The notes beneath the pieces are model-generated. The model saw nothing but the letters and a program-made list of their open reading frames with translations, was not told where the DNA came from and made no database searches. From Clostridia bacterium (lineage in GTDB: Bacteria; Bacillota; Clostridia; Christensenellales; Aristaeellaceae): DNA of 61,069 bases. The stretch spans positions 14,601 to 75,669 of the forward strand of contig JAUNQH010000003.1 of the NCBI GenBank assembly GCA_030536295.1, in the 5' to 3' direction. Position numbers and translations under genes: made by a program. This document shows positions 45,775-61,069 of the stretch, piece by piece; within the stretch, counting starts at the first letter, position 1, and each line of letters starts with the position of its first letter.

Positions 45775-46767
45775 TCACTTTACTACGCTGCCCTTGCCGC
45801 CGCGGGCTGTAAGGGCAACGATGATCAGCAGTGCCGCGCCCGTGACCACATTCTGGATGGTGGTCGGAGCACCCAGTGCGACAAAGCCGTTGAAGATCAG
45901 CGCGATGATGAATTCACCCACCACGATAGCTGTAATAGGCTTGCCGTATTTACGGAAAGCCACGCCGAAGAACGTGCCCATCAGCGGCGTGAAGTTGCGG
46001 CTCATGGTGCTCATACCGGTCAGTGCCGTCATGGTTGTGCCATAGGATACGGTCAGGATCGCCATGATACCGACAAAGAAATGCAGCAGCATAAAGCCGA
46101 TCAGCTTATATTTCTTGACGTCGATACCCATGTTTCTGGCCGTGAATTCATTGCTGCCGATGGCGTTGCAGTAGGTCCCGATCTTGGTGAAGTTAAGGAT
46201 GAAATACATGAGCGCGAAAGCCAGCGCCGCCAGGATGATATTGCCCGGTGCGGAGGAGAAGAAGCGAAGGTCCTCCCCCAGCGTCTGTTTCGCGCCGCCC
46301 GCGGCAAATACCGCCACGCTCTCAAAGATCAGCATCAGTCCCACGGTGACGATCATCGAGGGGACATTCAGCCGGTTATAAAGGAAACCGATCAGCAGGC
46401 CGATCAGCGTTCCGCAGCCCAGGCAGCCGGCAACGAAACCGAAATAGCCCAGATATTTGGACAGGATCACGCCCACGATCGAGGAAAGTACGACGTTCGC
46501 GCCGACGGCAAAATCAAAAAGGCCCATAACCACAATAAAATACAGGCCGCAGCCGCCGACAGAGTAGATAATGGAAGACTGCAGGTAGGAATAGAGATTA
46601 GCGGGAGAACCGAAGTTATCAGGCGTCAGGATCTTGAACACCGCGTAAAAGAACAGCACCATGCCCGCCAGCAGAATGTACCCGTAATATTTGCTGCTTT
46701 TCAGCTTCTGCAGCTTTTCCCGGAAGTTTCCGCTTTCCGGATTCTTTTCCTGTAATGTCTGTGTCAT
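45775..46767 (-). CDS. Sugar ABC transporter permease (RbsC-like), first permease
   Basis: 330 residues with about ten helices. MGLFDFAVGANVVLSSIVG, IGLLIGFLYNRLNVPSMIVTVG and GSNEFTARNMGIDVKKYK fit the branched RbsC-like permease family. It is only distantly similar to the second permease, so the channel is probably a heterodimer. AGGAAG precedes the ATG. It follows the binding-protein gene after a hairpin that may reduce transcription. Confidence 0.88.
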   Translation of the reverse strand: MTQTLQEKNPESGNFREKLQKLKSSKYYGYILLAGMVLFFYAVFKILTPDNFGSPANLYSYLQSSIIYSVGGCGLYFIVVMGLFDFAVGANVVLSSIVGVILSKYLGYFGFVAGCLGCGTLIGLLIGFLYNRLNVPSMIVTVGLMLIFESVAVFAAGGAKQTLGEDLRFFSSAPGNIILAALAFALMYFILNFTKIGTYCNAIGSNEFTARNMGIDVKKYKLIGFMLLHFFVGIMAILTVSYGTTMTALTGMSTMSRNFTPLMGTFFGVAFRKYGKPITAIVVGEFIIALIFNGFVALGAPTTIQNVVTGAALLIIVALTARGGKGSVVK

Positions 46768-46811
46768 GCTTTTATCTTCCTGTTCTTTCGGATTTTGACA
46801 GCATGAGAAAA

Positions 46812-46856
46812 CCGGGGAGGGGGCATGTCCGCGCCTCAGGCTGCCTCTCTCCCCGG
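46812..46856 (-). terminator. Intra-operon terminator/attenuator after the sugar-binding protein gene
   Basis: Stem CCGGGGAG/CTCCCCGG (46812-46819 with 46849-46856) followed on the minus strand by TTTTCTC. Confidence 0.7.
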
Positions 46857-46865
46857 ATATCGGTC

Positions 46866-47984
46866 TTATTTGGTGTGACGGGTCACAACGTCGTCAACGG
46901 ACAGCCCGGCACAGGCAGCAGCCAGATCATCATAGCTCAGGCCGGCCAGATTCAGGATCTCATCGGCATAATAAGGCAGTTCGGTGCCGGTGAAATACTG
47001 CGCGTAGTTCGCGTAGCTCTCGGGAGAGTCAACGAACATGTAGGGGAATACCATGTCATAGAAGCCTTCTTCGGAGGTGGCATAGTTGCCCTTGATGGCA
47101 TTGTAGACCATCAGGAAAGCGAAGAAAGGATCGGCATAGTGTCCGCCGGATTCAGCAGCCATGGCGCCGGTTTCAAGCTTCACGTCCAGATCGGGCAGGA
47201 AGTCGGTGGAAACAACGGCGATCTTGCCGGTCAGGCCCTTGCCTTCGATACCGGCCACGGCACCCAGCAGGGTGTCTCCGCCGCCGCCGGCAACGATCAG
47301 AGCATCGATGTCGGGATTGGCGTCAATGATCGCTTCGGCAGCCTGACGTCCGGTGTCGGTGGTGGTGCGGCCGTACTGGGGCTCCAGCATGACCATCTGA
47401 TCATCCGGATGCTCGGCATTCCAGGCTTCCACGCCGGCCTTGTAGCCTTCCCAGCGTCCCAGGAACGTGGCATCGCCGGGTTCCCAGCCTTCCAGACCGA
47501 TCTTGCGGCAGCCCTTGTTGCCCAGAATGGTCACCAGGGTCTTGCCGTTATCAAATTCGGATTCATGCACAGCGCCTACATAATACTTGGACGCGCAGGC
47601 CTGAGCATATTCGTCGGGGTTATCATCCGCATTGATGACACGGAAGAACTGTGCCACATAAATTTCGTTGTCATCGCAGGTCTTGATGACAGAGCCCATC
47701 TCCGCGGAAGCGGAATTGCAGATAATGATACCGTCGCAGTCAGCCATCGCCAGCGTTTCGGCGGAAGCGGTCACCTGCTCGGAGATATGAGCCTGGTCGA
47801 CCCACTGGGTCTCAACGCCCAGCACGTCGGCGGCAGCATCGATCAGACGCTTGACTTCACTGCCCAGGGTATCGGTGGAACTCCAGATGGAAATACCGAT
47901 CTTGATCTTGTCTTCAGCCTGAACGGAAAGGGCCAGACCGCAGACCATAGTCAGTACCAGGAACAGAGCAACGATCCTTTTCAT
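46866..47984 (-). CDS. Sugar ABC transporter substrate-binding protein (periplasmic-binding-protein type 1)
   Basis: 372 residues. The signal peptide ends near SVQA; no lipobox is present. KIGISIWSSTDTLGSEVKRLIDAAA, CDGIIICNSASAEMG and ALIVAGGGGDTLLGAVAG follow the Peripla_BP_4 fold used for ribose, galactose and related ligands. The ligand is unassigned; several residues that bind hexoses in RbsB are not recognisable. AAGGGGG precedes the ATG, and a perfect consensus promoter drives the operon. Confidence 0.87.
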   Translation of the reverse strand: MKRIVALFLVLTMVCGLALSVQAEDKIKIGISIWSSTDTLGSEVKRLIDAAADVLGVETQWVDQAHISEQVTASAETLAMADCDGIIICNSASAEMGSVIKTCDDNEIYVAQFFRVINADDNPDEYAQACASKYYVGAVHESEFDNGKTLVTILGNKGCRKIGLEGWEPGDATFLGRWEGYKAGVEAWNAEHPDDQMVMLEPQYGRTTTDTGRQAAEAIIDANPDIDALIVAGGGGDTLLGAVAGIEGKGLTGKIAVVSTDFLPDLDVKLETGAMAAESGGHYADPFFAFLMVYNAIKGNYATSEEGFYDMVFPYMFVDSPESYANYAQYFTGTELPYYADEILNLAGLSYDDLAAACAGLSVDDVVTRHTK

Positions 47985-51112: not shown

Positions 51113-51880
51113 TCAAAGTACTTCTTCATATTGACTTTTCCGGAACTCACTCGGTGTCTGTTCCGTCATTTTCTTAAAGACCTTGCAAAAATATCCAACA
51201 TCGCTGAAACCGCTCAATTCAGAAATCTCATTTACGGATATTTCCTGAAGGATCAGCAGCTTCCTGGCAAATCTGATCTTCTGTGAAATAATATATGCAT
51301 TCGGTGTAACCAGATATTCAGCCTTGAAAAGTTCATCAAACCTTCTTCTTGACAGTTCACAGCCGGAATAGACTTCCCGAAGACATTCCGGTTCGTTGAA
51401 GTGATGATCGATATATTCCCTTGCCTGCTGGATACGGTTATCCCTCGGAGCATATTTTTTAAGACGTATATGATCAAAAATGGAACATATTTTATAGAAA
51501 TCACTGACCGCTTCATGCTCTGATTCGCCGGATATGCTTTTATACTTGATCATTTTCATAAACAGATGAATGATCTGATCCTCATTATGGATCTTTATCG
51601 CGAAGCTGTCCGTAGTGATCGGCTCATACGTTGTAAAATGGACAACATAGCAAGCGCCTTTTTCCTCGGCATATACGCTGTAGTTATCGCGCTGATTGAA
51701 AAAGAAAATGCAATTATCATCAACAACAAATGACTGATAGCCAAAGTTATGGTGTTCCTTGCCGGATATTGAAATGCCTATAACATGGTGCGTATTGTTT
51801 TTAGCCGTCCATGATTTTGTATCCGTCTGATAACGGATCGCCAGTTCAATGTCACGTATCTTTAAATTCTGGAAATCCAT
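51113..51880 (-). CDS. AraC-family transcriptional regulator
   Basis: 255 residues from ATG 51880 (GGAG 7 nt upstream). The N-terminal 145 residues have the strand pattern of a cupin-like sensing domain (VIGISISGKEHHNFGYQSF, CYVVHFTTYEP). The C-terminal double helix-turn-helix starts at QQAREYIDHHF; the second unit shows SVNEISELSGFSDVGYFCKVFKKMTEQTPSEFR, shared by AraC members. It is divergent from the glycyl radical enzyme operon and is the natural candidate for its inducer-responsive activator. It is markedly AT-rich, like the operon. Confidence 0.88.
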   Translation of the reverse strand: MDFQNLKIRDIELAIRYQTDTKSWTAKNNTHHVIGISISGKEHHNFGYQSFVVDDNCIFFFNQRDNYSVYAEEKGACYVVHFTTYEPITTDSFAIKIHNEDQIIHLFMKMIKYKSISGESEHEAVSDFYKICSIFDHIRLKKYAPRDNRIQQAREYIDHHFNEPECLREVYSGCELSRRRFDELFKAEYLVTPNAYIISQKIRFARKLLILQEISVNEISELSGFSDVGYFCKVFKKMTEQTPSEFRKSQYEEVL

Positions 51881-52229
51881 CTTTCTTCTCCGATCCGGTC
51901 TGTTTTTGTTCACGGAACCGCTCCGGCTGCCGGAAAAGATACCGGCATGCTGTGCGGCAGAATACCGCCGATCAATTTCACTTTACCATATATTACAACA
52001 GAAAAGCAACAACAAACCGATATGCGTGCATCATCCGGTGTCATCGTGCATATCAGTGATCAGCAAAGCCCTTTATTTATATATTATTTTGGTACAACGT
52101 CCCTGAAAACGAATGTATTTTTTAAATCTTCGTCTCCCGGAAAGATTAATGATTTCCATATTTTACAATAATTCTATATATTCCATTGTGCTTAAGAAAA
52201 TGGAATACATAATAATATCATAAAGAAAG
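51881..52229. other. AT-rich divergent control region of the glycyl radical enzyme operon
   Basis: 349 bp with no gene. It contains a 9-bp inverted repeat (52179-52187 with 52199-52207) just before the enzyme gene, an ATATGC/GCATAT pair (about 52020 and 52050), and a weak plus-strand promoter candidate TTCCAT (52154-52159)-17-TATATT (52077-like element at 52177-52182). The inverted repeat would overlap its start site. Confidence 0.45.
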
Positions 52230-54554
52230 ATGAACACACCAAACGATCATGCATATGTGCTGAACCAGTGTGCTTTAAACGGGGGGATTGGATCCATGAA
52301 TCATCTGGATATGCGTAATGAGCTGCGTGAATACTACTGGACGGATACCGGTGAACGTGCGGAAAACTTCTGCCAAATGATATGTGCTCAGCTGGATCGG
52401 CAGTATAGCGATGATATGAACGCCTATGAAATGAAAATGATGCAGTATCAGGCGATCTCCGAAGCGTTTCAGCCTGTCATTTTCAGAACTGTACCTTTCT
52501 ATTATGAAACCGGAACCATGTTTTCCCAGACAGACGGAAGCCGTGACTTCCATGGGCACCGGCATGCCGGTGGCTGGACTTACTGGAAGAACGCGCATAA
52601 ATTCATTGATCAGGATCCCGAATTATGGGAACTGCAAAAAGCCCAGCAGCAGGAGCTGTTTTATACAGTCGGTGCAGCATACGAAGACGGCGGATATAAT
52701 GACCAGATGCAGCACTTCAATTTTAACTATCGTCCGATTTTAGCGCACGGATTGAAAACAGTTTATGAAAAAGCCGCGGCAGGTCTGAAAAAAACTGAAA
52801 CGCGTGAAGAAGAGCTGTTCCTGCAATCCGTTTGTACCGCCATGCTCGCCATGAAGAAAATGAGCGAAAAGTTCGCAGCCAAAGCAGCGGAGTTAATGGA
52901 AACAGAAACAGATGAAGCCGTCAGGGATAATTACAGCCGGATCGCCGAAGCAGCCTCCAGGACCCCATGGTCGGCTCCACAGAATCTTTATGAAGCGCTG
53001 AACACTCTCGCTTTCATGCGAAAAGCATTCGGCACGCTGGACGGAGTCGGTCCCAATACATTCGGCCGTATTGACCTGGATCTGTATCCTTTCTATGAAA
53101 GGGACATAGCTGAAAACAGAATAACAAAAGAAGAAGCCTACGATCTCATATGTAAATTCCTTCTGGTCTGGGATCAGCACTATGATCATGACATGAAAAT
53201 GGTAGGCTATGCGGATCATGAGCTGGAAAATACGTATGTGCTGGGCGGCTGCGATGCCGAAGGGCGGCCTGTGTGCAATGATCTGACACTTATGTTTCTG
53301 AGAGCTTCCCGCGAAGAAGTGATCATTATTCCCAAGATCACCTGCCGCTACAGCAAAAACTCACCTAAAGAATATCTGGATGAAGCCAACCGGGCTGTTG
53401 TGAATGGTACGAGCACCCTGCTCTTCCAGAATGATGACGCTTCCATTCCGGCAATGCTGCGTCAGGGAAGAACGATTGAGGAAGCCCGCGATTACATTAT
53501 TACCGGCTGCTGGGCCATCATGGGCAACGGAATGGAGAAAATCGATGACGGCTGCTATGTCAATATTCTCAAAGTAATGGAATATATGCTGCATAACCGT
53601 ACCGATAAAATGGAAAAAGTCGGTATGCAGTTCGAACTTATTGATCAAGCCGAAAGCTTTGAGGATATCTATCGCATTTACTGCGCGAATATTCTGAAGT
53701 TTTTTGAAGAACGCGCCCGTGTCGTCCGCGCGGGCGGAAACATCTGGAATACAGTCGATCCCCAGCCGATATTCTCTTCAACACTGAAATACTGTATTGA
53801 GAATAAAAAAGACTACACGGCAGGCGGCGCCAAATATCGCGACAGCCGTTATGAGCTGGTCGGTTTCCCCAATGTCCTTGATTCCCTGCTGGCGATCAGG
53901 GAACTGTGCTATGTCAAAAAGCAATACACACTGACCGAACTGCTGCAGGCGATCCGCTGCAACTGGGAAGGCCTTGAAAACATGAGGCTCGATGCTTTGA
54001 GATGCCACGGATGGGGTGACGGTTCGAAAGAAACCTCTGAACTTGCCAGACGTTTCATGCACGATCTGTTCACGATGGCTGATCAACAAGTCGGAACCTA
54101 CGGCGGAAAAGTGTTCATCGGTCATTTTACCTATACGGAAATCGTGTGGTGGGGAAAACAAACACTTGCCACTCCGGACGGAAGGCGAAATGGCGAATAC
54201 ATCTCTCAGGGACTTACGCCTTCCAGGCTCAAGAAGATCCCGGCGGTAACAAGTGTAATAAACAACTTCAGTGAGCTGGATTCCAGCGAGATCAGAGGGA
54301 ATTCGGTCGTAAACATCATCCTTCCCAATCATATTTCTCTCGAACATTGCGAAGCTTTTCTGCGTGCTGTGGCAGACTCATCCGTTCAGTCACTGCAGCT
54401 GAACTGCACATCATTGGAGCAGCTTCGTGATGCTCAGTCGCATCCGGAAAAATACCCGGAACTTATTGTTCGGGTTTGCGGTTTCTCCGCAAAGTTTACC
54501 AGCTTGTCACGTGAGTATCAGGAAGAAGTGATCTCCCGTAATTTCTACGAATGA
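52230..54554 (+). CDS. Glycyl radical enzyme (pyruvate formate-lyase-like), unknown substrate
   Basis: 774 residues. The C-terminal glycyl radical loop is RVCGFSAKFTSLS with the radical Gly at 751. The thiyl-radical Cys is probably C427 in IITGCWAIMGNG. Most characterised dehydratase/lyase-type members have GCVE there; Trp-Ala replaces Val-Glu, so the usual Glu general base is missing. A Cys (C750) precedes the radical Gly where Ser or Ala is usual. ATPDGRR and the preceding segments fit the PFL domain. The chemistry is radical-based cleavage, elimination or decarboxylation of an imported compound, not identified. Start ATG 52230 has a weak Shine-Dalgarno; ATG 52296 behind GGGGGG is an alternative. 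Confidence 0.9.
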   Translation: MNTPNDHAYVLNQCALNGGIGSMNHLDMRNELREYYWTDTGERAENFCQMICAQLDRQYSDDMNAYEMKMMQYQAISEAFQPVIFRTVPFYYETGTMFSQTDGSRDFHGHRHAGGWTYWKNAHKFIDQDPELWELQKAQQQELFYTVGAAYEDGGYNDQMQHFNFNYRPILAHGLKTVYEKAAAGLKKTETREEELFLQSVCTAMLAMKKMSEKFAAKAAELMETETDEAVRDNYSRIAEAASRTPWSAPQNLYEALNTLAFMRKAFGTLDGVGPNTFGRIDLDLYPFYERDIAENRITKEEAYDLICKFLLVWDQHYDHDMKMVGYADHELENTYVLGGCDAEGRPVCNDLTLMFLRASREEVIIIPKITCRYSKNSPKEYLDEANRAVVNGTSTLLFQNDDASIPAMLRQGRTIEEARDYIITGCWAIMGNGMEKIDDGCYVNILKVMEYMLHNRTDKMEKVGMQFELIDQAESFEDIYRIYCANILKFFEERARVVRAGGNIWNTVDPQPIFSSTLKYCIENKKDYTAGGAKYRDSRYELVGFPNVLDSLLAIRELCYVKKQYTLTELLQAIRCNWEGLENMRLDALRCHGWGDGSKETSELARRFMHDLFTMADQQVGTYGGKVFIGHFTYTEIVWWGKQTLATPDGRRNGEYISQGLTPSRLKKIPAVTSVINNFSELDSSEIRGNSVVNIILPNHISLEHCEAFLRAVADSSVQSLQLNCTSLEQLRDAQSHPEKYPELIVRVCGFSAKFTSLSREYQEEVISRNFYE

Positions 54555-54572
54555 CAAAAGAGAGGATGCCTG

Positions 54573-55442
54573 ATGCAGACAGGAATTGTTTTTGATATAC
54601 AGCATAATTCATTTGTTGACGGGCCCGGAATCAGAACCAGTGTATTCATGAAAGGCTGTAATCTTCACTGCAGCTGGTGCCATAATCCCGAAAGTCAGAG
54701 ATTTGCTCCGGAGCTTATGGTTTTTCAAAACAAATGCACGCATTGCGGCAAATGTGAAAAGATCTGTCCCCACCATCAATCGGAATGTGACCTGTGCGGC
54801 AGCTGTGCGGATTATTGTCCGAATGATGCAAGAAAGATCTGCGGAGCAGAATATACATCTGAAGCCATAATGGAGGAAATAAGGAAGGACCGGATATTCT
54901 ACAGTGCTTCGGGCGGCGGAGTCACCTTTTCCGGCGGTGAATGCATGCTTCAGCTTGACTTTCTGCGGGAACTTCTGATGCTGTGCAGGCATGAGCATAT
55001 CCATACGGCGATCGATACCGCCGGAAACGTTCCGTATGCGGATCTGGAATCTGTTTTGCCATGGACCGATCTGATTCTGTATGACATCAAGGTCATGGAT
55101 CCAAACACCCACAAGCAGCATACCGGAAGCAGCAACCGAGAGATCCTGCGGAATCTGGAAAAGCTGCTGAAGGCGGATGTAAGCATCTGGATCCGTATGC
55201 CGGTCATTCCCGGTGTCAATGACAGTGACGATGAAATAAAACAGCTGGCTGAATTCCTTACAAGAAACGGAATACCTGACAAAATCGAATTACTGCCGTA
55301 TCACCGGATGGGCGAACATAAATATCAGGCAACCGGCAGAAAAATACCTGTCTTTGAGATTCCGGCTGACGAAAAAATGGCGCACCTGAATCAGCTGCTG
55401 CAGTCTCTGTTGGGCAACAGAAAGGAAGTGTCGGGAATATGA
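54573..55442 (+). CDS. Glycyl radical enzyme activase (radical SAM)
   Basis: 289 residues. The radical-SAM cluster is C29-x3-C33-x2-C36 (GCNLHCSWCHNP), preceded by FVDGPGIRTSVF, typical of PFL-activase proteins. A ferredoxin-like insert holds two CxxCxxCxxxC sets (C55-C65 and C72-C82), as in activases of the dehydratase-type branch; PFL activase itself lacks it. FSGGECMLQ and the DIKVMDPNTH segment complete the fold. It installs the Gly751 radical using SAM. 18 nt behind the enzyme gene, and it overlaps the permease gene by 4 bp (ATGA). Confidence 0.95.
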   Translation: MQTGIVFDIQHNSFVDGPGIRTSVFMKGCNLHCSWCHNPESQRFAPELMVFQNKCTHCGKCEKICPHHQSECDLCGSCADYCPNDARKICGAEYTSEAIMEEIRKDRIFYSASGGGVTFSGGECMLQLDFLRELLMLCRHEHIHTAIDTAGNVPYADLESVLPWTDLILYDIKVMDPNTHKQHTGSSNREILRNLEKLLKADVSIWIRMPVIPGVNDSDDEIKQLAEFLTRNGIPDKIELLPYHRMGEHKYQATGRKIPVFEIPADEKMAHLNQLLQSLLGNRKEVSGI

Positions 55443-56401
55443 GTGGAAAAGTAAAGAAAAGAAAATCACGAAACGGTTCGTCCTTTGATAATCTTGAGAT
55501 CTTTTTCCTTCACCTGCCAACTACGATCTGGTATGTGATCTTCTGTTATCTGCCGATGTTCGGTATTGTCATTGCGTTTAAAAATTACCGCGTCGCGCCT
55601 GGGAAAAGCTTTCTTTACAGTCTTTTCGTCAAGAGCAAGTGGTGTGGTTTTGACAATTTCAAATTTCTCGTCAATAATTCGATCTTCAAAACAATGATAT
55701 CCAATACCGTAGTATATAACATCATCTTTATCATACTCGGTATCGTGATCCCCGTTACACTGGCCATTATGTTCTCTCAACTCTACAGCAAACGGTTTGC
55801 AAAGGTCTGTCAGACTGCAATGTTCTTCCCGCATTTTATCAGCTGGGTCGTTGTAGGGTATTTCGTTTACGCATTTCTGGCTACCGATTACGGCATTGTC
55901 AATAATATTGCCAAGGCATTCGGTTCTGAACAATGGCGGCATCAGTGGTATCAGGATGTCGGTTTCTGGCGGGTTTTCATTGTGTTCCTGAATGTATGGA
56001 AAACAATGGGTTATAACATGGTTGTCTATATCGCGGCGATCAACGGCATAGACAGCGAGCTTTATGAAGCGGCGCTGATCGATGGCGCAAGCAAGTGGGA
56101 ACAGACCAGATATATTACCATACCTCTGCTCCGGCCTATTATTTCGATCATGTTCATTCTCGCGGTAGGCAATATTTTCAGAAGCGACTTCGGATTGTTC
56201 TATCAGGCCACACGGAATTCGCCTCAGCTGACCGGGGTCACCCAAACGATCGATGTATATATCTATAAAGCCCTGCTTGAAAATCCAAACATTAATTTTT
56301 CCTCCGCGGCAGCTCTTTTCCAATCGGTTTTCGGATGCATTACGATCGTACTTGCCAACCTTATCGTAAAGCGTATCGATCCGGAAGCCAGCTTATTCTG
56401 A
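55439..56401 (+). CDS. Carbohydrate-type ABC transporter permease (LplB/YtcP-partner family)
   Basis: 320 residues with six helices after a basic N-terminus. LPTTIWYVIFCYLPMFGIVIAFKNYR and GFDNFKFLVNN are hallmarks of LplB-type permeases; the EAA loop is YEAALIDGASKWEQTRYITIPLL. These transporters import oligosaccharides or related compounds in Firmicutes, mostly powered by a shared MsmK-like ATPase encoded elsewhere, which fits the absence of an ATPase gene here. The ATGA overlap with the activase couples enzyme and transporter production. Confidence 0.92.
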   Translation: MSGKVKKRKSRNGSSFDNLEIFFLHLPTTIWYVIFCYLPMFGIVIAFKNYRVAPGKSFLYSLFVKSKWCGFDNFKFLVNNSIFKTMISNTVVYNIIFIILGIVIPVTLAIMFSQLYSKRFAKVCQTAMFFPHFISWVVVGYFVYAFLATDYGIVNNIAKAFGSEQWRHQWYQDVGFWRVFIVFLNVWKTMGYNMVVYIAAINGIDSELYEAALIDGASKWEQTRYITIPLLRPIISIMFILAVGNIFRSDFGLFYQATRNSPQLTGVTQTIDVYIYKALLENPNINFSSAAALFQSVFGCITIVLANLIVKRIDPEASLF

Positions 56402-56422
56402 GTGGGAGGAGGGAAATACCTT

Positions 56423-57343
56423 ATGAAAAAACTGACAGCAAAAAGTCCGACGCTGGCATATACCCGTGTCAAACCGGCTACAAACGCGCTGTTCATTGCG
56501 ATCTTTGTGATCCTGTCCCTGTTATGCTTCCTGCCCGCACTGCTTGTGCTGATCGTTTCCTTTTCCAGTGAATCCAGCATCGCGACCGTCGGATACTCCT
56601 TTTTCCCGCAGGAGTGGAGTCTGGATGCCTATAAGTACATGTTCACACAAGGCGGTTATATCGGGCGCGCATTCCTGAACTCGATATTTATCACCTGCGT
56701 CGGCACATTTCTGGGATTGGCGCTGTGCTCAACCATGGGGTTCGCTCTTTCACGCTCCAATTATAAGTTCAAAGGCTTTTTCACCTGGTTCATTTTCATT
56801 CCGATGCTCTTCAACGGCGGTCTGGTTTCCAGCTATATGATCAATGCGCAGGTTCTCCATATGAAGGACACATACTGGGCACTGATTTTTCCGGAGCTTT
56901 GTTCCAGCTTTTATATCATTATCATGAGGACATTCTTCAAAACGACCGTCCCGGATGCAGTCATTGAATCAGCGCAGATCGACGGTGCCAGCCAGATCAG
57001 GATCTTTGTTCAAATCGTCCTGCCAATATCCCTTCCGGTTCTGGCAACGATAGGTCTGTTCTACACCTTTGCTTTCTGGAATGATTGGCAGCTTGCCAAA
57101 TATTATCTGTCATCCAATGTTCAGGAACTGTTTCCGCTGCAGTATGTGCTGATATCTCTGGAAAACAACATCGAATTCCTGAGCCGCAACAAGCAGTTCA
57201 TGCACGGCGTCGTAAACACCATTCCCGCGGAAACCGTCCGTATGGCTATGGTTATGGTCGCGGTCGTTCCGATCGCCTGCTCCTATCCGTTCTTCCAGAA
57301 ATACTTCGTTTCCGGTCTGACGGTGGGTGCAGTCAAAGGTTAA
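56423..57343 (+). CDS. Carbohydrate-type ABC transporter permease (YtcP/LplC family)
   Basis: 306 residues from ATG 56423, with GGGAGGAGGG upstream; the GTG at 56402 overlaps that site. Six helices. NALFIAIFVILSLLCFLPALLV, ALSRSNYKFKGF and the EAA loop ESAQIDGASQIRIFVQIVLPIS are typical for the partner of LplB. The C-terminus reads YPFFQKYFVSGLTVGAVKG, nearly the family consensus. It starts 21 nt after the first permease stop, in one transcript. Confidence 0.93.
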   Translation: MKKLTAKSPTLAYTRVKPATNALFIAIFVILSLLCFLPALLVLIVSFSSESSIATVGYSFFPQEWSLDAYKYMFTQGGYIGRAFLNSIFITCVGTFLGLALCSTMGFALSRSNYKFKGFFTWFIFIPMLFNGGLVSSYMINAQVLHMKDTYWALIFPELCSSFYIIIMRTFFKTTVPDAVIESAQIDGASQIRIFVQIVLPISLPVLATIGLFYTFAFWNDWQLAKYYLSSNVQELFPLQYVLISLENNIEFLSRNKQFMHGVVNTIPAETVRMAMVMVAVVPIACSYPFFQKYFVSGLTVGAVKG

Positions 57344-57395
57344 CGTTGATTTACAGCGGTTAATCCGCTTGTAAAAATAAAAGGAGGGAATCCAA

Positions 57396-58877
57396 ATGAA
57401 AAAGGTCCTGTCTCTGGTTATCGCAATGGTACTCCTTCTGTCCCTGTGCAGTTTCGCTGGCGCGGATGACGAAATAGTGAAACTGACATGGGCAACCGGA
57501 CATGAAGGATATGTTCCGGCCGACAATGCGATGGTTCTTGAGAAACTGAATGAGATCTCACGTGAAGCCATCGGCGTGGAAGTTGATATCAAATATTTCA
57601 CGGAAGATGAAATGCAACTGTCCATCAATTCCGGTGAAGTATACGATATGTATTTCACAGCTTCCTGGTACAACAATTTCAACAGCAATGTCTCCAAGGG
57701 TCTGTTTGCCAATATCGCGCCCTACATTCAGGAGTGGACCCCCGAACTCTACGCTACGATGCCCGAAACCGTATGGAGTCTGGCCAAATCTTCTGACGGC
57801 GGACTGTACGCGATTCCCGTAAAGAAGGACTATGCACCGGAAAGCATCATTCACTATCCCGCCAGAGTCGCCGAAGAACTCGGCTTTGAGATTCCGGACG
57901 TCATTGACAGCTGGGATGAACTGACCGATTTCCTGGTTGCCTGGAAGGCAACAATGGGCGATAATCAGTATCCCGTTATGCTGAGCAACGTCACCTACGG
58001 TATCGACTACTCCTTTGACTTTATCGACCGTGACGCCCTGATCGGCGTTATGCCTGGTGCTGAAGACGCTACAAAAGTCGTATGCTCTCTGGAGGATCCC
58101 AAGGCTTTCGAAAGATATATGACGCTGTATAAGTGGAACAGCATGGGGCTGGTCAATCCTGATGCCGCAACACTCGGGTTCACCGCTATCGCGACGGATG
58201 CCGACCATCAGCATCTCGGATTCGACCTGGCATGGGATCACTATGACTGGAGTCCCACCACCGGCTACTACACCAAGATGACCCGTTATGAAGGTCCGTT
58301 CCTGAATACCGATGGTGTCACCGGCGCCATGAACGCTTTCTCCGTCACACTGGAAGAGGATCTGCCCCGTCTGAAGAAAGCTCTTGAATATCAGCAGTTT
58401 GTCAATACCAACAAAGAATATCGTGATACGCTGCGCTACGGCATCGAGGGTTATCACTGGAACTATGTTACCGAAGGACCTTGCGCCGGTGCCGTGCTGA
58501 AGACCGGTGTCGGCGACTACGCTCCCTGGGCTTTCGCACAGGGCAACTATGAACTTTCCTCTATCGAAGTGACCCAGGCCCAGGTGGATGGTACCGATCC
58601 GGCTCCCTATCTGGATCAGTGGGAAGTTTACTTCAAGGCCTGTGAAACCGCCCCTGTGTCCGCGATCGCCGGATTTTCCTGGGACAGCTCCAATGTTTCC
58701 GCTCAGATCGCCCAGATCAATGCCATTAAGGACGAGTATCTGGTGCAGCTGAACACCGGTACCGGCGAGAATCCTGAAACGCTGATCCCCAGGTTCATGC
58801 AAGCTTTGAATGATGCCGGTCTTCAGGATGTTATCAATGACGCGCAGGCTCAGCTTGATGCTTATCTTGGCAAGTGA
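57396..58877 (+). CDS. Extracellular solute-binding protein of the LplA type
   Basis: 493 residues. The signal peptide MKKVLSLVIAMVLLLSLC ends at FAGA; no proper lipobox. VKLTWATGHEGYVPADNAMVLEKLN and the middle region GDNQYPVMLSNV fit the large binding proteins paired with LplB/YtcP (DUF3502-containing). The C-terminus LIPRFMQALNDAGLQDVI resembles the paralogue at the end of the window. It should bind the compound that the glycyl radical enzyme uses. AAAGGAGGG is upstream, and a terminator follows. Confidence 0.88.
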   Translation: MKKVLSLVIAMVLLLSLCSFAGADDEIVKLTWATGHEGYVPADNAMVLEKLNEISREAIGVEVDIKYFTEDEMQLSINSGEVYDMYFTASWYNNFNSNVSKGLFANIAPYIQEWTPELYATMPETVWSLAKSSDGGLYAIPVKKDYAPESIIHYPARVAEELGFEIPDVIDSWDELTDFLVAWKATMGDNQYPVMLSNVTYGIDYSFDFIDRDALIGVMPGAEDATKVVCSLEDPKAFERYMTLYKWNSMGLVNPDAATLGFTAIATDADHQHLGFDLAWDHYDWSPTTGYYTKMTRYEGPFLNTDGVTGAMNAFSVTLEEDLPRLKKALEYQQFVNTNKEYRDTLRYGIEGYHWNYVTEGPCAGAVLKTGVGDYAPWAFAQGNYELSSIEVTQAQVDGTDPAPYLDQWEVYFKACETAPVSAIAGFSWDSSNVSAQIAQINAIKDEYLVQLNTGTGENPETLIPRFMQALNDAGLQDVINDAQAQLDAYLGK

Positions 58878-58935: not shown

Positions 58936-58975
58936 GTCCCGGGAACGGCATTATGCCGGCCCGGGACTCTTTATT
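58936..58975 (+). terminator. Terminator of the glycyl radical enzyme operon
   Basis: GTCCCGGG (58936-58943) pairs with CCCGGGAC (58960-58967), with a CGGCAT/ATGCCG inner stem, and CTCTTTATT follows. Confidence 0.85.
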
Positions 58976-59185: not shown

Positions 59186-60613
59186 ATGGAAAAGATCATT
59201 TTCGGCACAGGCGGATGGCGCGCGATCATCGGCGACACATTCATCCGCGGCAACATCAGCAAAGTGGCGAAAGCACTGGCGCTCCGGATGAAGGATGAGC
59301 ATGCCGAAGAAAAGGGCATCTGTATCGGCTACGACCGCCGGTTTCTGAGCCGTGAAGCGGCCATCTGGTTTTCCGAGGTCATGGCCGGGGAAAATATTCC
59401 GGTGCTGTTCATCAATCTGGCGGCGCCGACCCCGCAGATCATGTATACCGTAAAGGATCTGAAGCTGCCCTACGGCGCGGCGGTCACCGCCAGCCATAAC
59501 CCGGCCATATACAACGGCATCAAGCTGTTCACATTCGGCGGCCGCGACGCGGATCAGACGTATACGGATCAGCTGCAGGAATCTGCGAACCGGCTGACGG
59601 AGGATGATATCAGCATCGTCCCGTTTGAAAAGGGGCTGGAGTCCGGGATCATCAGGTTCATTGACCCGCGGGACAGATACCTTGATTCCATCATGGACAA
59701 GATCAATCTTGCCGCGATCCGCGCGAGAAGGCCGAGGATCGTGCTGGACCCGATGTACGGTGTGAGCCTGACAGGCCTGCAGACCATTCTGTACACCGCG
59801 CGCTGCGATATCAACATCATCAATGACCGGCATGACGCGTTCTTCGGCGGGCACCTTCCCGCTCCGAACGAGGAAACACTGGTCGATCTGCAGAAGGAAG
59901 TGCGTGAACGGCACGCGGATATCGGCATGGCGACGGACGGCGATGCCGACCGGCTCGGCATCATTGACGAAAAGGGCCGCTATGTCAGCGCGAATGAGGT
60001 CCTTGTGCTGCTGTATCACTATCTGCTGAAGTACAAAGGCTGGCATGGCGCCGCGGTCCGCAACATCGCGACGACGCACCTGCTGGACCGGGTAGCGGAA
60101 AAGTTCGGCGAGCATTGCTATGAGGTGCCCGTCGGATTCAAACACATTTCCGCGGCGATGGACGAACATGACGCGCTCATCGGCGGTGAATCCTCCGGCG
60201 GTCTGACCGTACGCGGACATATCAGCGGCAAGGACGGTCTGTATGCCGCAAGCCTGCTGGTGGAAATGGTGTGCGTGACCGGAAAGCCGATCTCCGAACT
60301 GGTAAAGGAGATCTATGAAGAGTACGGCGAAGCGCACATGGCCGAGTATGACTGGGCCCTGACGGTCGAATCCCGCGACAGGATCAATGAGACCGTGATG
60401 ATCAGGAAAGAGCTGCCGCAATTCAGCCATACAACGGACCATGTCAGCTATATGGACGGCTGCAAGGTCTACTTCAATGACGGATGGATCATCATCCGCT
60501 TCTCCGGCACGGAGCCGCGGATCCGGATCTTCGCGGAAGCGGATACCGCGGAAAACGCGAAGGATATCGTACGTCAGGCTGCCGGATGGCTCGGACTTCC
60601 GTTTGAAAATTAA
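59186..60613 (+). CDS. Phosphoglucomutase/phosphomannomutase family protein
   Basis: 475 residues. The phosphoserine loop is VTASHNP with S103, the Mg loop is DGDADR (D251, D253, D255), the sugar loop is GGESSGG, and the phosphate loop is RFSGTEPR. This is the complete alpha-D-phosphohexomutase set, so the enzyme should be active on glucose-1-P, mannose-1-P or glucosamine-1-P. The N-terminus IIFGTGGWRAIIGD and the length suggest the group usually annotated phosphoglucomutase/phosphomannomutase. It has its own promoter and terminator and is not part of the neighbouring operon. AAGGAG precedes the ATG. Confidence 0.93.
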   Translation: MEKIIFGTGGWRAIIGDTFIRGNISKVAKALALRMKDEHAEEKGICIGYDRRFLSREAAIWFSEVMAGENIPVLFINLAAPTPQIMYTVKDLKLPYGAAVTASHNPAIYNGIKLFTFGGRDADQTYTDQLQESANRLTEDDISIVPFEKGLESGIIRFIDPRDRYLDSIMDKINLAAIRARRPRIVLDPMYGVSLTGLQTILYTARCDINIINDRHDAFFGGHLPAPNEETLVDLQKEVRERHADIGMATDGDADRLGIIDEKGRYVSANEVLVLLYHYLLKYKGWHGAAVRNIATTHLLDRVAEKFGEHCYEVPVGFKHISAAMDEHDALIGGESSGGLTVRGHISGKDGLYAASLLVEMVCVTGKPISELVKEIYEEYGEAHMAEYDWALTVESRDRINETVMIRKELPQFSHTTDHVSYMDGCKVYFNDGWIIIRFSGTEPRIRIFAEADTAENAKDIVRQAAGWLGLPFEN

Positions 60614-60641
60614 ACGATCATCCGAATGACCGGATGACGTT

Positions 60642-60685
60642 AAAAGCCCGAAGATCGTTGTTATCAGCGTTCTCCGGGCTTTTTA
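60642..60685 (+). terminator. Terminator of the phosphohexomutase gene
   Basis: AAAAGCCCG (60642-60650) pairs with CGGGCTTTT ending near 60684; long loop. A smaller CATCCG/CGGATG hairpin precedes it (60619-60636). Confidence 0.65.
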
Positions 60686-60707
60686 CATCCCTGTTTCCGA
60701 TAAGAAA

Positions 60708-60733
60708 GGAGCCGTCCCGCGAAGGACGGCTCC
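60708..60733 (-). terminator. Terminator of the last solute-binding protein gene
   Basis: A perfect 10-bp stem (60708-60717 with 60724-60733) with a TTTCTTAT tail on the minus strand. Confidence 0.75.
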
Positions 60734-60752
60734 GGATCAGTTGACTTAAGTA

Positions 60753-61069
60753 TTACTTGCCGGCCAGGTAAGCATCGAGCTGCGCGTTGGCGGCATCCAG
60801 GTACGTCTGCATACCGGCGGCATCCAGAGCGGCCAGGAAATCGGGCAGCACGGTCTCGGGATCCACAGCACCGGCATCCAGCGCCAGAGCATACTGAGCG
60901 GCAACATTGCCCAGAGCGGCCATTTCGTTGCTCACATCGGTGTTGTCAAACACGTAGCCCAGGCTGGGGATCGCCTTGGCGCTTCCGTAGTAGTCAATGA
61001 AGCTCTGACGGAAGCCGGCGCCTTCGGCAGCGGTATCGGGCAGGATGGTGACATTGCCCACGCCGTTGG
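60753..61069 (-). CDS. Solute-binding protein of the LplA type, C-terminal part (window edge)
   Basis: The minus-strand frame is open to the last base of the window, so only the last 105 or so residues are visible. PETVLPDFLAALDAAGMQTYL and AQLDAYLAGK match the end of the binding protein at 58.9 kb (PETLIPRFMQALNDAGLQDVI, AQLDAYLGK), making the two paralogues. A second transporter of this type probably lies beyond the window. The ligand is unknown. Confidence 0.8.
   Translation of the reverse strand, partial: NGVGNVTILPDTAAEGAGFRQSFIDYYGSAKAIPSLGYVFDNTDVSNEMAALGNVAAQYALALDAGAVDPETVLPDFLAALDAAGMQTYLDAANAQLDAYLAGK

Follow-up and report, generated by a model that had tools for sequence, protein, structure and literature searches.

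Which reaction does a glycyl radical enzyme (GRE), a type of enzyme sensitive to oxygen, perform when its gene heads an operon with an importer, and does that importer belong to it? These questions are raised by a locus in a gut Clostridia bacterium of the family Aristaeellaceae (assembly GCA_030536295.1, contig JAUNQH010000003.1), lying in a stretch of 61,069 nucleotides (nt) that we call the window; positions refer to it unless another locus is named. Our reading, to which we give a probability of roughly 0.55, is that the AraC and GRE genes, with or without an activase gene, form a portable cassette of an undescribed GRE subfamily (clade A), that this cassette here heads an operon with a CUT1-type importer, and that the enzyme would work by the mechanism proposed below. 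The locus holds the following features.

51113..51913, minus strand: AraC-family regulator, divergent from the GRE gene (HTH_18 3.3e-17; HTH_AraC)
52155..52174, plus strand: candidate AraC operator TCCATATTTTACAATAATTC, about 120 nt upstream of the ATG at 52296, from a motif found by expectation maximization (EM)
52230-54554 (open reading frame [ORF]; probable start 52296), plus strand: GRE of clade A (PFL-like 1.7e-95; Gly_radical 6.3e-15)
54573..55442, plus strand: glycyl-radical activating enzyme (activase), a radical SAM protein (TIGR02494, 341.1 bits; cut-off 174.35)
55439..56401, plus strand: LplB-like permease (BPD_transp_1), with an ATGA overlap with the activase gene
56423..57343 (ORF from 56402), plus strand: YtcP-like permease (BPD_transp_1)
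57396..58877, plus strand: solute-binding protein with a C-terminal DUF3502 (profile match)
About 58936-58967, plus strand: terminator-like hairpin closing the operon (sequence and folding energy)

By its sequence, the GRE is a member of an undescribed subfamily of a known superfamily. It passes both superfamily profiles (PF02901, 321.5 bits with a cut-off of 24.3; PF01228, 56.1 bits with a cut-off of 22.2). However, it reached only 308.2 of the 678.2 bits required for TIGR01774, the PFL2/glycerol dehydratase subfamily, and it fell far below the cut-offs of the NCBIfam equivalogs for CutC, HypD, sulfopropanediol dehydratase, HPAD, IAD, and PFL. Thus, the enzyme belongs to none of the NCBIfam GRE families, which supports the original prediction on this point. 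In a tree-ordered alignment of 139 GREs and 5 references, from which six GREs of fewer than 600 amino acids had been excluded, clade A appeared as a single block of 46. Its members are 51-69% identical to the window GRE (43 aligned relatives), and those from the order, class, and family samples are 52-69% identical. They share the signatures QH[FY] (QHV in one), HYDHDM-like, DHELENTY-like, GCW[AGD], and GFSA[KR]FT-like. The 46-member set was selected by W428, E331, E333, and N334, numbered like all GRE residues here from the ORF start at 52230, so that these columns are invariant by selection; the set is nevertheless the entire clade block of the tree-ordered list, and none was dropped for missing selection residues. 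Two sisters, L032 and L036, were separated by hand, and the 96 comparison GREs include the 5 references.

A scan of named genomes gave 47 loci with a clade A-type GRE, whose titles were mostly those of Oscillospiraceae, Clostridia, or Clostridiales metagenome-assembled genomes (MAGs). A gut sample from deer, goat, sheep, buffalo, or horse is named in 19 of the 47 titles and in none of the rest. L091 and L094, at contig edges, are probably halves of one gene. In its own partial genome (66.8% complete, 84 contigs) the window GRE is the only PF02901 match. We found no description of clade A-like enzymes in the open-licence literature, which was searched mainly through titles and abstract openings.

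The conserved partner of the clade A GRE is the AraC gene. Neighbors were counted by tblastn; mechanical ORF calling had overlooked the L048 activase and, where loci were GC-rich, had chosen some antisense ORFs. A divergent AraC homologue was present in 33 of the 44 clade A loci whose upstream sequence extends 1 kb or more, and AraC and GRE distances correlated (31 loci; Mantel r 0.61, 0 of 999 permutations). Of the five GREs and the five AraCs nearest to those of the window, four come from the same loci. When EM was applied to 34 upstream regions, it found a 20-bp motif with a log-likelihood of 346, compared with 74-84 in three shuffled sets. This motif scored at least 12 in 29 of the 34 regions and stood 73-105 nt before the GRE match in 27. 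In the window it matched once with up to 3 mismatches allowed, at 52155-52174, against 0.02 matches expected. Since the AraC gene and the candidate operator are both conserved, the inducer can be sought directly. A search of 11 genomes returned 19 operator-like places, in 6 of the genomes, compared with 6 for a reversed control pattern. Five of the 19 lie directly upstream of clade A GREs (L194, the window's own; L195; L196; L197; and L208). A wider AraC regulon was considered and rejected: of nine non-GRE places inspected, seven were inside genes and two were intergenic with no related gene (G327:C33 and G000:C80), and we treated such places as chance. At L050 (1118-7390), two clade A GREs stand back to back with two AraC genes between them.

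The activase is a less frequent companion, found on the same strand and within 1.4 kb downstream in 12 of the 39 clade A loci that have 1 kb or more of downstream sequence. Where it occurs, its distances follow those of the GRE (13 loci; r 0.50, 0 of 999 permutations). The window activase belongs to TIGR02494 and carries CX3CX2C plus two ferredoxin-type Cys motifs.

All six genes in the window exceed the curated profile thresholds of their families, and the gene set is thus not due to chance. The intergenic gaps are 18, -4 (the ATGA overlap of activase and permease), 21, and 52 nt if the second permease begins at the ATG at 56423, which is preceded by GGGAGGAGG. Translation of the GRE probably begins at the ATG at 52296, 66 nt downstream of the ORF opening, to give 752 amino acids, because the first residue of most clade relatives aligns with Met23 and this ATG follows a G-rich stretch. 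The 63-nt stretch around the hairpin folds at -27.3 kcal/mol (z -3.7), and a simple terminator scan of the window did not return it. Beyond the hairpin the next gene, at 59186-60613, encodes a phosphohexomutase (PGM) common in the genus; within the operon there is no enzyme gene besides those for the GRE and the activase. Gene order, direction, spacing, the single terminator, and the lack of a downstream enzyme were therefore described correctly from the letters alone.

The two BPD_transp_1 permeases and the DUF3502 binding protein identify the importer as CUT1-type (LplB/YtcP/DUF3502). The operon has no ATPase gene; the importer may use a shared ATPase of the MsmX type encoded elsewhere in the genome. 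The original prediction held this importer to be dedicated to the GRE. On that account the two would form a coevolved pathway in which the importer carries exactly the GRE substrate, and the tight gaps, the ATGA overlap, the one hairpin, and the low G+C content of the whole block all speak for it. So do the recurrence of GREs with LplB/YtcP genes in other GRE families (below) and the run at L077 (9953-20429), which holds on one strand a GRE, an activase, an alpha/beta hydrolase, AraC, a glycoside hydrolase of family 125 (GH125; a metal-independent alpha-mannosidase, E 3e-138), a 639-amino-acid protein without assignment, two BPD_transp_1 permeases, and the start of a further gene. However, no other clade A locus among the 34 with at least 3 kb downstream carries an LplB/YtcP/DUF3502 importer directly in the operon, and the window binding protein had no match by tblastn in any of them. 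An LplB/YtcP-like match lay within about 6 kb in only three. At L060 it shares the strand of the GRE but is separated from it by unrelated genes for TruB, RibF, and a radical SAM protein and by a 446-nt gap, and has its own SBP_bac_1 gene; at L074 it is convergent to the GRE; and the L077 permeases, which make that locus a partial exception, are 23% identical to the window LplB. Moreover, the genus importers whose permeases are 57-72% identical to those of the window sit in GH130 or NamZ neighborhoods without a GRE. The original prediction had taken a lack of linkage in other genomes as grounds for giving up the word "dedicated"; because the importer is absent from the 34 operons, we therefore give it up. 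The importer is a local, not a conserved, partner of the clade A GRE, and we now consider a dedicated pathway unlikely. The same survey of 34 loci led us to reject the idea that clade A and this importer recur together.

The closest importers seen in the genus are at L184 and L185 (permeases 71-72% identical, binding protein about 50%). The LplB-like permease is 72% identical to that of L185, and the YtcP-like permease is 71% identical to those of both. The L185 importer follows a GH130 gene and precedes genes for DUF4434, M20/C39, GH20C, a BadF-type ATPase, and a weak ceramidase-like match. A more distant genus importer, L186, adjoins NamZ. We also considered the importer at the PGM locus as an ancestor and rejected it, since the LplB/YtcP/binding-protein set beside PGM in five genus genomes differs (24-47% identical). 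In the window, PGM and the binding-protein end that follows it (59186-61061) are arranged unlike these five genomes, where the other LplB/YtcP set faces the 5' side of PGM.

What, then, might the enzyme do? As landmarks we used the pocket residues known for E. coli PFL and glycerol dehydratase. In the alignment the columns of PFL R176, A272, F327, W333, C419, F432, R435, and G734 and of glycerol dehydratase H164, H281, S282, Y339, C433, E435, D447, and G763 were mutually consistent. The radical residues are kept: Cys427 (thiyl) in 46 of 46 clade A sequences and Gly751 (glycyl) in 45 of 45, one sequence ending before the Gly. His162, equivalent to His164 of glycerol dehydratase, is also retained. 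The thiyl motif of the window GRE is Cys427-Trp428-Ala429, and Glu at the second position after the Cys occurs in none of the 46 (33 Gly, 8 Asp, 5 Ala), compared with 77 of the 96 other GREs. Glu333, itself a selection residue, is present in all 46, while Glu stands in that column, the one of PFL Trp333 and glycerol dehydratase Tyr339, in about 5% of other GREs. Tyr327 and Tyr443, at the columns of PFL Phe327 and Arg435, are invariant in clade A, as are Tyr635, Thr636, and Glu637. Our guess is that the Tyr635-Glu637 stretch corresponds to the isethionate lyase stretch that holds Arg676 and Phe680 (PMC6453916). Across all 144 sequences, 70 have Glu after the Cys without an acid at column 333 and 47 (clade A plus L032) have the acid at 333 without that Glu. 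Sister L036 has the reverse pair, Glu429 and Gly333; sister L032 has Asp429 and Glu333. Further GREs without Glu after the Cys and with no acid at column 333 were seen at L147 (6422-8725), L149 (6365-8605), L134 (GC[FY][NS]), L145 (8187-10229; SCMG), and L152 (6932-8974; ACCT).

We propose the following mechanism. Judging from the conserved site, an imported compound or one derived from it would bind AraC, which would act at 52155-52174 and switch on the operon. The activase would install a radical on Gly751 that passes to Cys427; Gly-to-Cys radical transfer is established for the GRE superfamily. The thiyl radical would then abstract hydrogen from a small substrate that probably resembles a sugar or a polyol and that the alignment to the landmark residues would place between Cys427-Trp428, His162, Tyr443, and Glu333. 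On the opposite wall, Glu333 would probably act as the acid/base while a bond is broken in a redox-neutral way, for instance by water loss or ring opening; the absence of the usual Glu after the Cys leads us to propose it for this role. At this locus the importer would bring in the substrate itself or a glycoside of it, which may be a mannosyl glycan. We think the substrate is probably carbohydrate-like. Relocation of the acid/base to Glu333, as suggested by the aligned columns, is a tentative proposal at somewhat less than even odds, and redox-neutral C-O cleavage is possible but on balance doubtful. We think it rather unlikely that clade A is a branch of a large undescribed radiation of gut-Clostridia GREs that attack imported unphosphorylated sugars, in which clade A alone would have its acid/base moved to Glu333 and a new radical sugar reaction, and that the genes spread as cassettes that plug into the importers and hydrolases of the host.

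For a sugar-type substrate we counted the NgtS-related binding protein, the GH130, GH20C, and BadF genes by the close importer, GH125 in L077, and the GH2, GH20, GH127, and PfkB genes by other clade A genes. GH130 in L185 and GH125 in L077 hint at mannosyl glycans. A carbohydrate-type substrate stays our best guess because other, unrelated GRE families of the same bacterial family adjoin LplB/YtcP importers. The earlier proposal of an imported, carbohydrate-like substrate is plausible; a recurrent pairing of this particular enzyme with this importer is not supported.

Several observations weigh against the cassette reading and its mechanism. The importer and its binding protein are missing from the 34 other clade A operons surveyed above, and the operator motif gets a low score in 5 of 34 upstream regions. 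A single event in the phylogeny appears to account for the Glu swap, and the 47-to-70 split is therefore not independent evidence; 8 of the 144 GREs carry both acids and 19 carry neither. The Asp found after the Cys in 8 of 46 clade members could still act. The neighbors are weak evidence, too. We annotated 20 neighbor proteins, 19 of the 218 listed within 4 kb and one further out. Among them were GH2, GH20, GH127, PfkB, URO-D, DUF6259, DUF4886, a beta-lactamase-like protein, a creatininase, a BREX protein, a second GRE, housekeeping genes, and five proteins that matched nothing; three GHs and one PfkB in such a set count for little. No neighbor except AraC and the activase recurs widely; therefore, the substrate cannot be read from the neighbors. 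We also tried to name the product from the genes downstream and gave this up, as none of these genes is conserved across loci.

Could the enzyme instead be an ordinary GRE dehydratase of the 1,2-diol type that has drifted, with Asp, Gly, or water in place of the missing Glu? Its best PDB profile matches are CutC, glycerol dehydratase, and HypD, the His162, Cys, and Gly are kept, and 8 of the 46 have the Asp just mentioned. The glycerol and propanediol dehydratases (1r8w and 5i2a) also share with it the barrel homology, the thiyl Cys, the glycyl Gly, the His164 equivalent, and an activase of their own, although they are distant (phmmer, 210-218 bits). However, the glycerol dehydratase residues Glu435, His281, Ser282, and Asp447 all fall on changed or variable columns: Glu435 is replaced by Gly, Asp, or Ala, His281 by Gly, and Ser282 by Pro in 31 of 46, the Asp447 column is variable, and Glu333 replaces Tyr339. 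By contrast, Tyr443, Tyr635, and Glu637, which are not selection residues, are invariant, as are the selection residues Glu333 and Trp428. This pattern makes simple drift improbable.

A further alternative is a GRE that does not eliminate at all but works on a small acid or amine, for example as a C-C lyase, decarboxylase, or isomerase; its carbohydrate neighbors would then simply mirror a carbohydrate-rich genome. The eliminase Glu is lost, PFL, which likewise lacks it, is a C-C lyase, and several loci show no in-line gene behind the GRE in the mechanical ORF list. Against this, the PFL-type Cys418-Cys419 pair is not present in the GRE, which has Gly426-Cys427 instead, and the decarboxylase and succinate synthase scores are below those of the eliminases CutC, glycerol dehydratase, and HypD. 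We give this alternative a low probability.

The substrates of known gut GREs are choline, hydroxyproline, isethionate, and anhydrosugars, and a gut-bacterial subfamily in which the standard catalytic Glu is missing suggests a chemistry still to be described. The top PDB profile match of the window GRE is CutC, the choline trimethylamine-lyase (9f3w and others; 341 bits). The window enzyme reaches only 218 of the 1050 bits set for the CutC equivalog, however, lacks the Glu after the Cys, and unlike CutC has no microcompartment genes among the six genes of its locus. LplB/YtcP importers are not known to phosphorylate what they carry, whereas E. coli pflD stands among phosphotransferase system (PTS) genes, near the regulator gene yijO. 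E. coli YbiW and PflD open 1,5-anhydroglucitol-6-P and 1,5-anhydromannitol-6-P (PMC12441222) and are thus, like our proposal, GREs on sugar-like compounds; they differ in their PTS, their phosphorylated substrate, and the Glu retained after the Cys in our alignment. The solved relatives of the window binding protein are 5suo, 5mlt, and 5swa/5swb. The last two are NgtS bound to mannosyl N-glycan fragments, as passages of PMC5215778 report. NgtS is related to the window protein (E 3e-20), and its NgtS-NgtP1-NgtP2 importer likewise has two permeases with no ATPase gene named in those passages. It differs in that no GRE is mentioned in them.

The pairing of GREs with LplB/YtcP genes, which failed for clade A itself, did hold for other GRE families of this lineage. 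G782, from the window's bacterial family, has three other kinds of GRE in same-strand runs with LplB/YtcP genes, one of which also holds four Gfo/Idh/MocA proteins and a xylose-isomerase-like protein (L125, G782:C258, 3470-15785). The GRE family of this last run, with the motif GC[HN]WM, also lacks the usual Glu after the Cys and was matched in 25 out of 300 genomes from the window's family. Among 20 of its 32 listed loci that were fetched (L242-L261), 6 have a same-strand LplB/YtcP gene within 5 kb and 13, by hand count, a same-strand Gfo/Idh/MocA gene within 7 kb. Forty other GREs in 31 loci of GRE-rich genomes gave 7 divergent AraC-like matches, 11 downstream activases, and 5 LplB/YtcP matches at most 5 kb away, of which 2 are same-strand and downstream. 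Several sampled clade A genomes are themselves GRE-rich: in twelve genomes with clade A members or more remote relatives, PF02901 matches number 1 to 15 per genome, some of them gene fragments. In the class sample of 245 genomes, where mostly 4 candidates per genome were scored, nine have at least 9 first-look GRE candidates and most have 1-5. Within about 11 kb, L152 (6932-18226) has three different GREs, each accompanied by an activase and two by a divergent AraC. We also saw 7 GREs in about 46 kb at G446:C24, arrays of GRE, activase, and AraC genes at L144-L146 (L145, 250-12205), and, on one strand at L150 (846-9194), two adjoining GREs with one activase, an AraC gene, and LplB/YtcP genes.

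We then asked where the block came from. A clade A GRE is present in 1 of 45 genus genomes, the only other over-threshold match being a distant GRE in G945. The G+C content is 39.7% in AraC, 48% in the GRE and activase genes, and 43.5-51.8% in the importer genes, compared with 57.6-60.1% in NhaC, MsrA, and PGM and 54.1% in the window. Because of this low G+C and the presence in 1 of 45 genomes, sequence composition and distribution suggest horizontal gain of the block. PGM occurs in 35 of the 45 genomes, its own included. It is very improbable that faulty assembly or binning attached a foreign GRE block to this genome: the MAG is partial, the G+C steps fall inside the contig, and the gene is confined to one genus genome, but the adjoining PGM has 66-71% identical relatives in 34 other genus genomes, the closest permease relatives seen belong to the genus, and all six reading frames are intact.

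Ceramidase_alk-like proteins stand near clade A GREs or related importers at L053 (9711), L144 (4715), L184 (13807), and L185 (16710), three of the four matches being at or near the cut-off. Elsewhere in the window, on the minus strand at 45775-47984, neighboring genes resemble, by eye, a permease and a binding protein.

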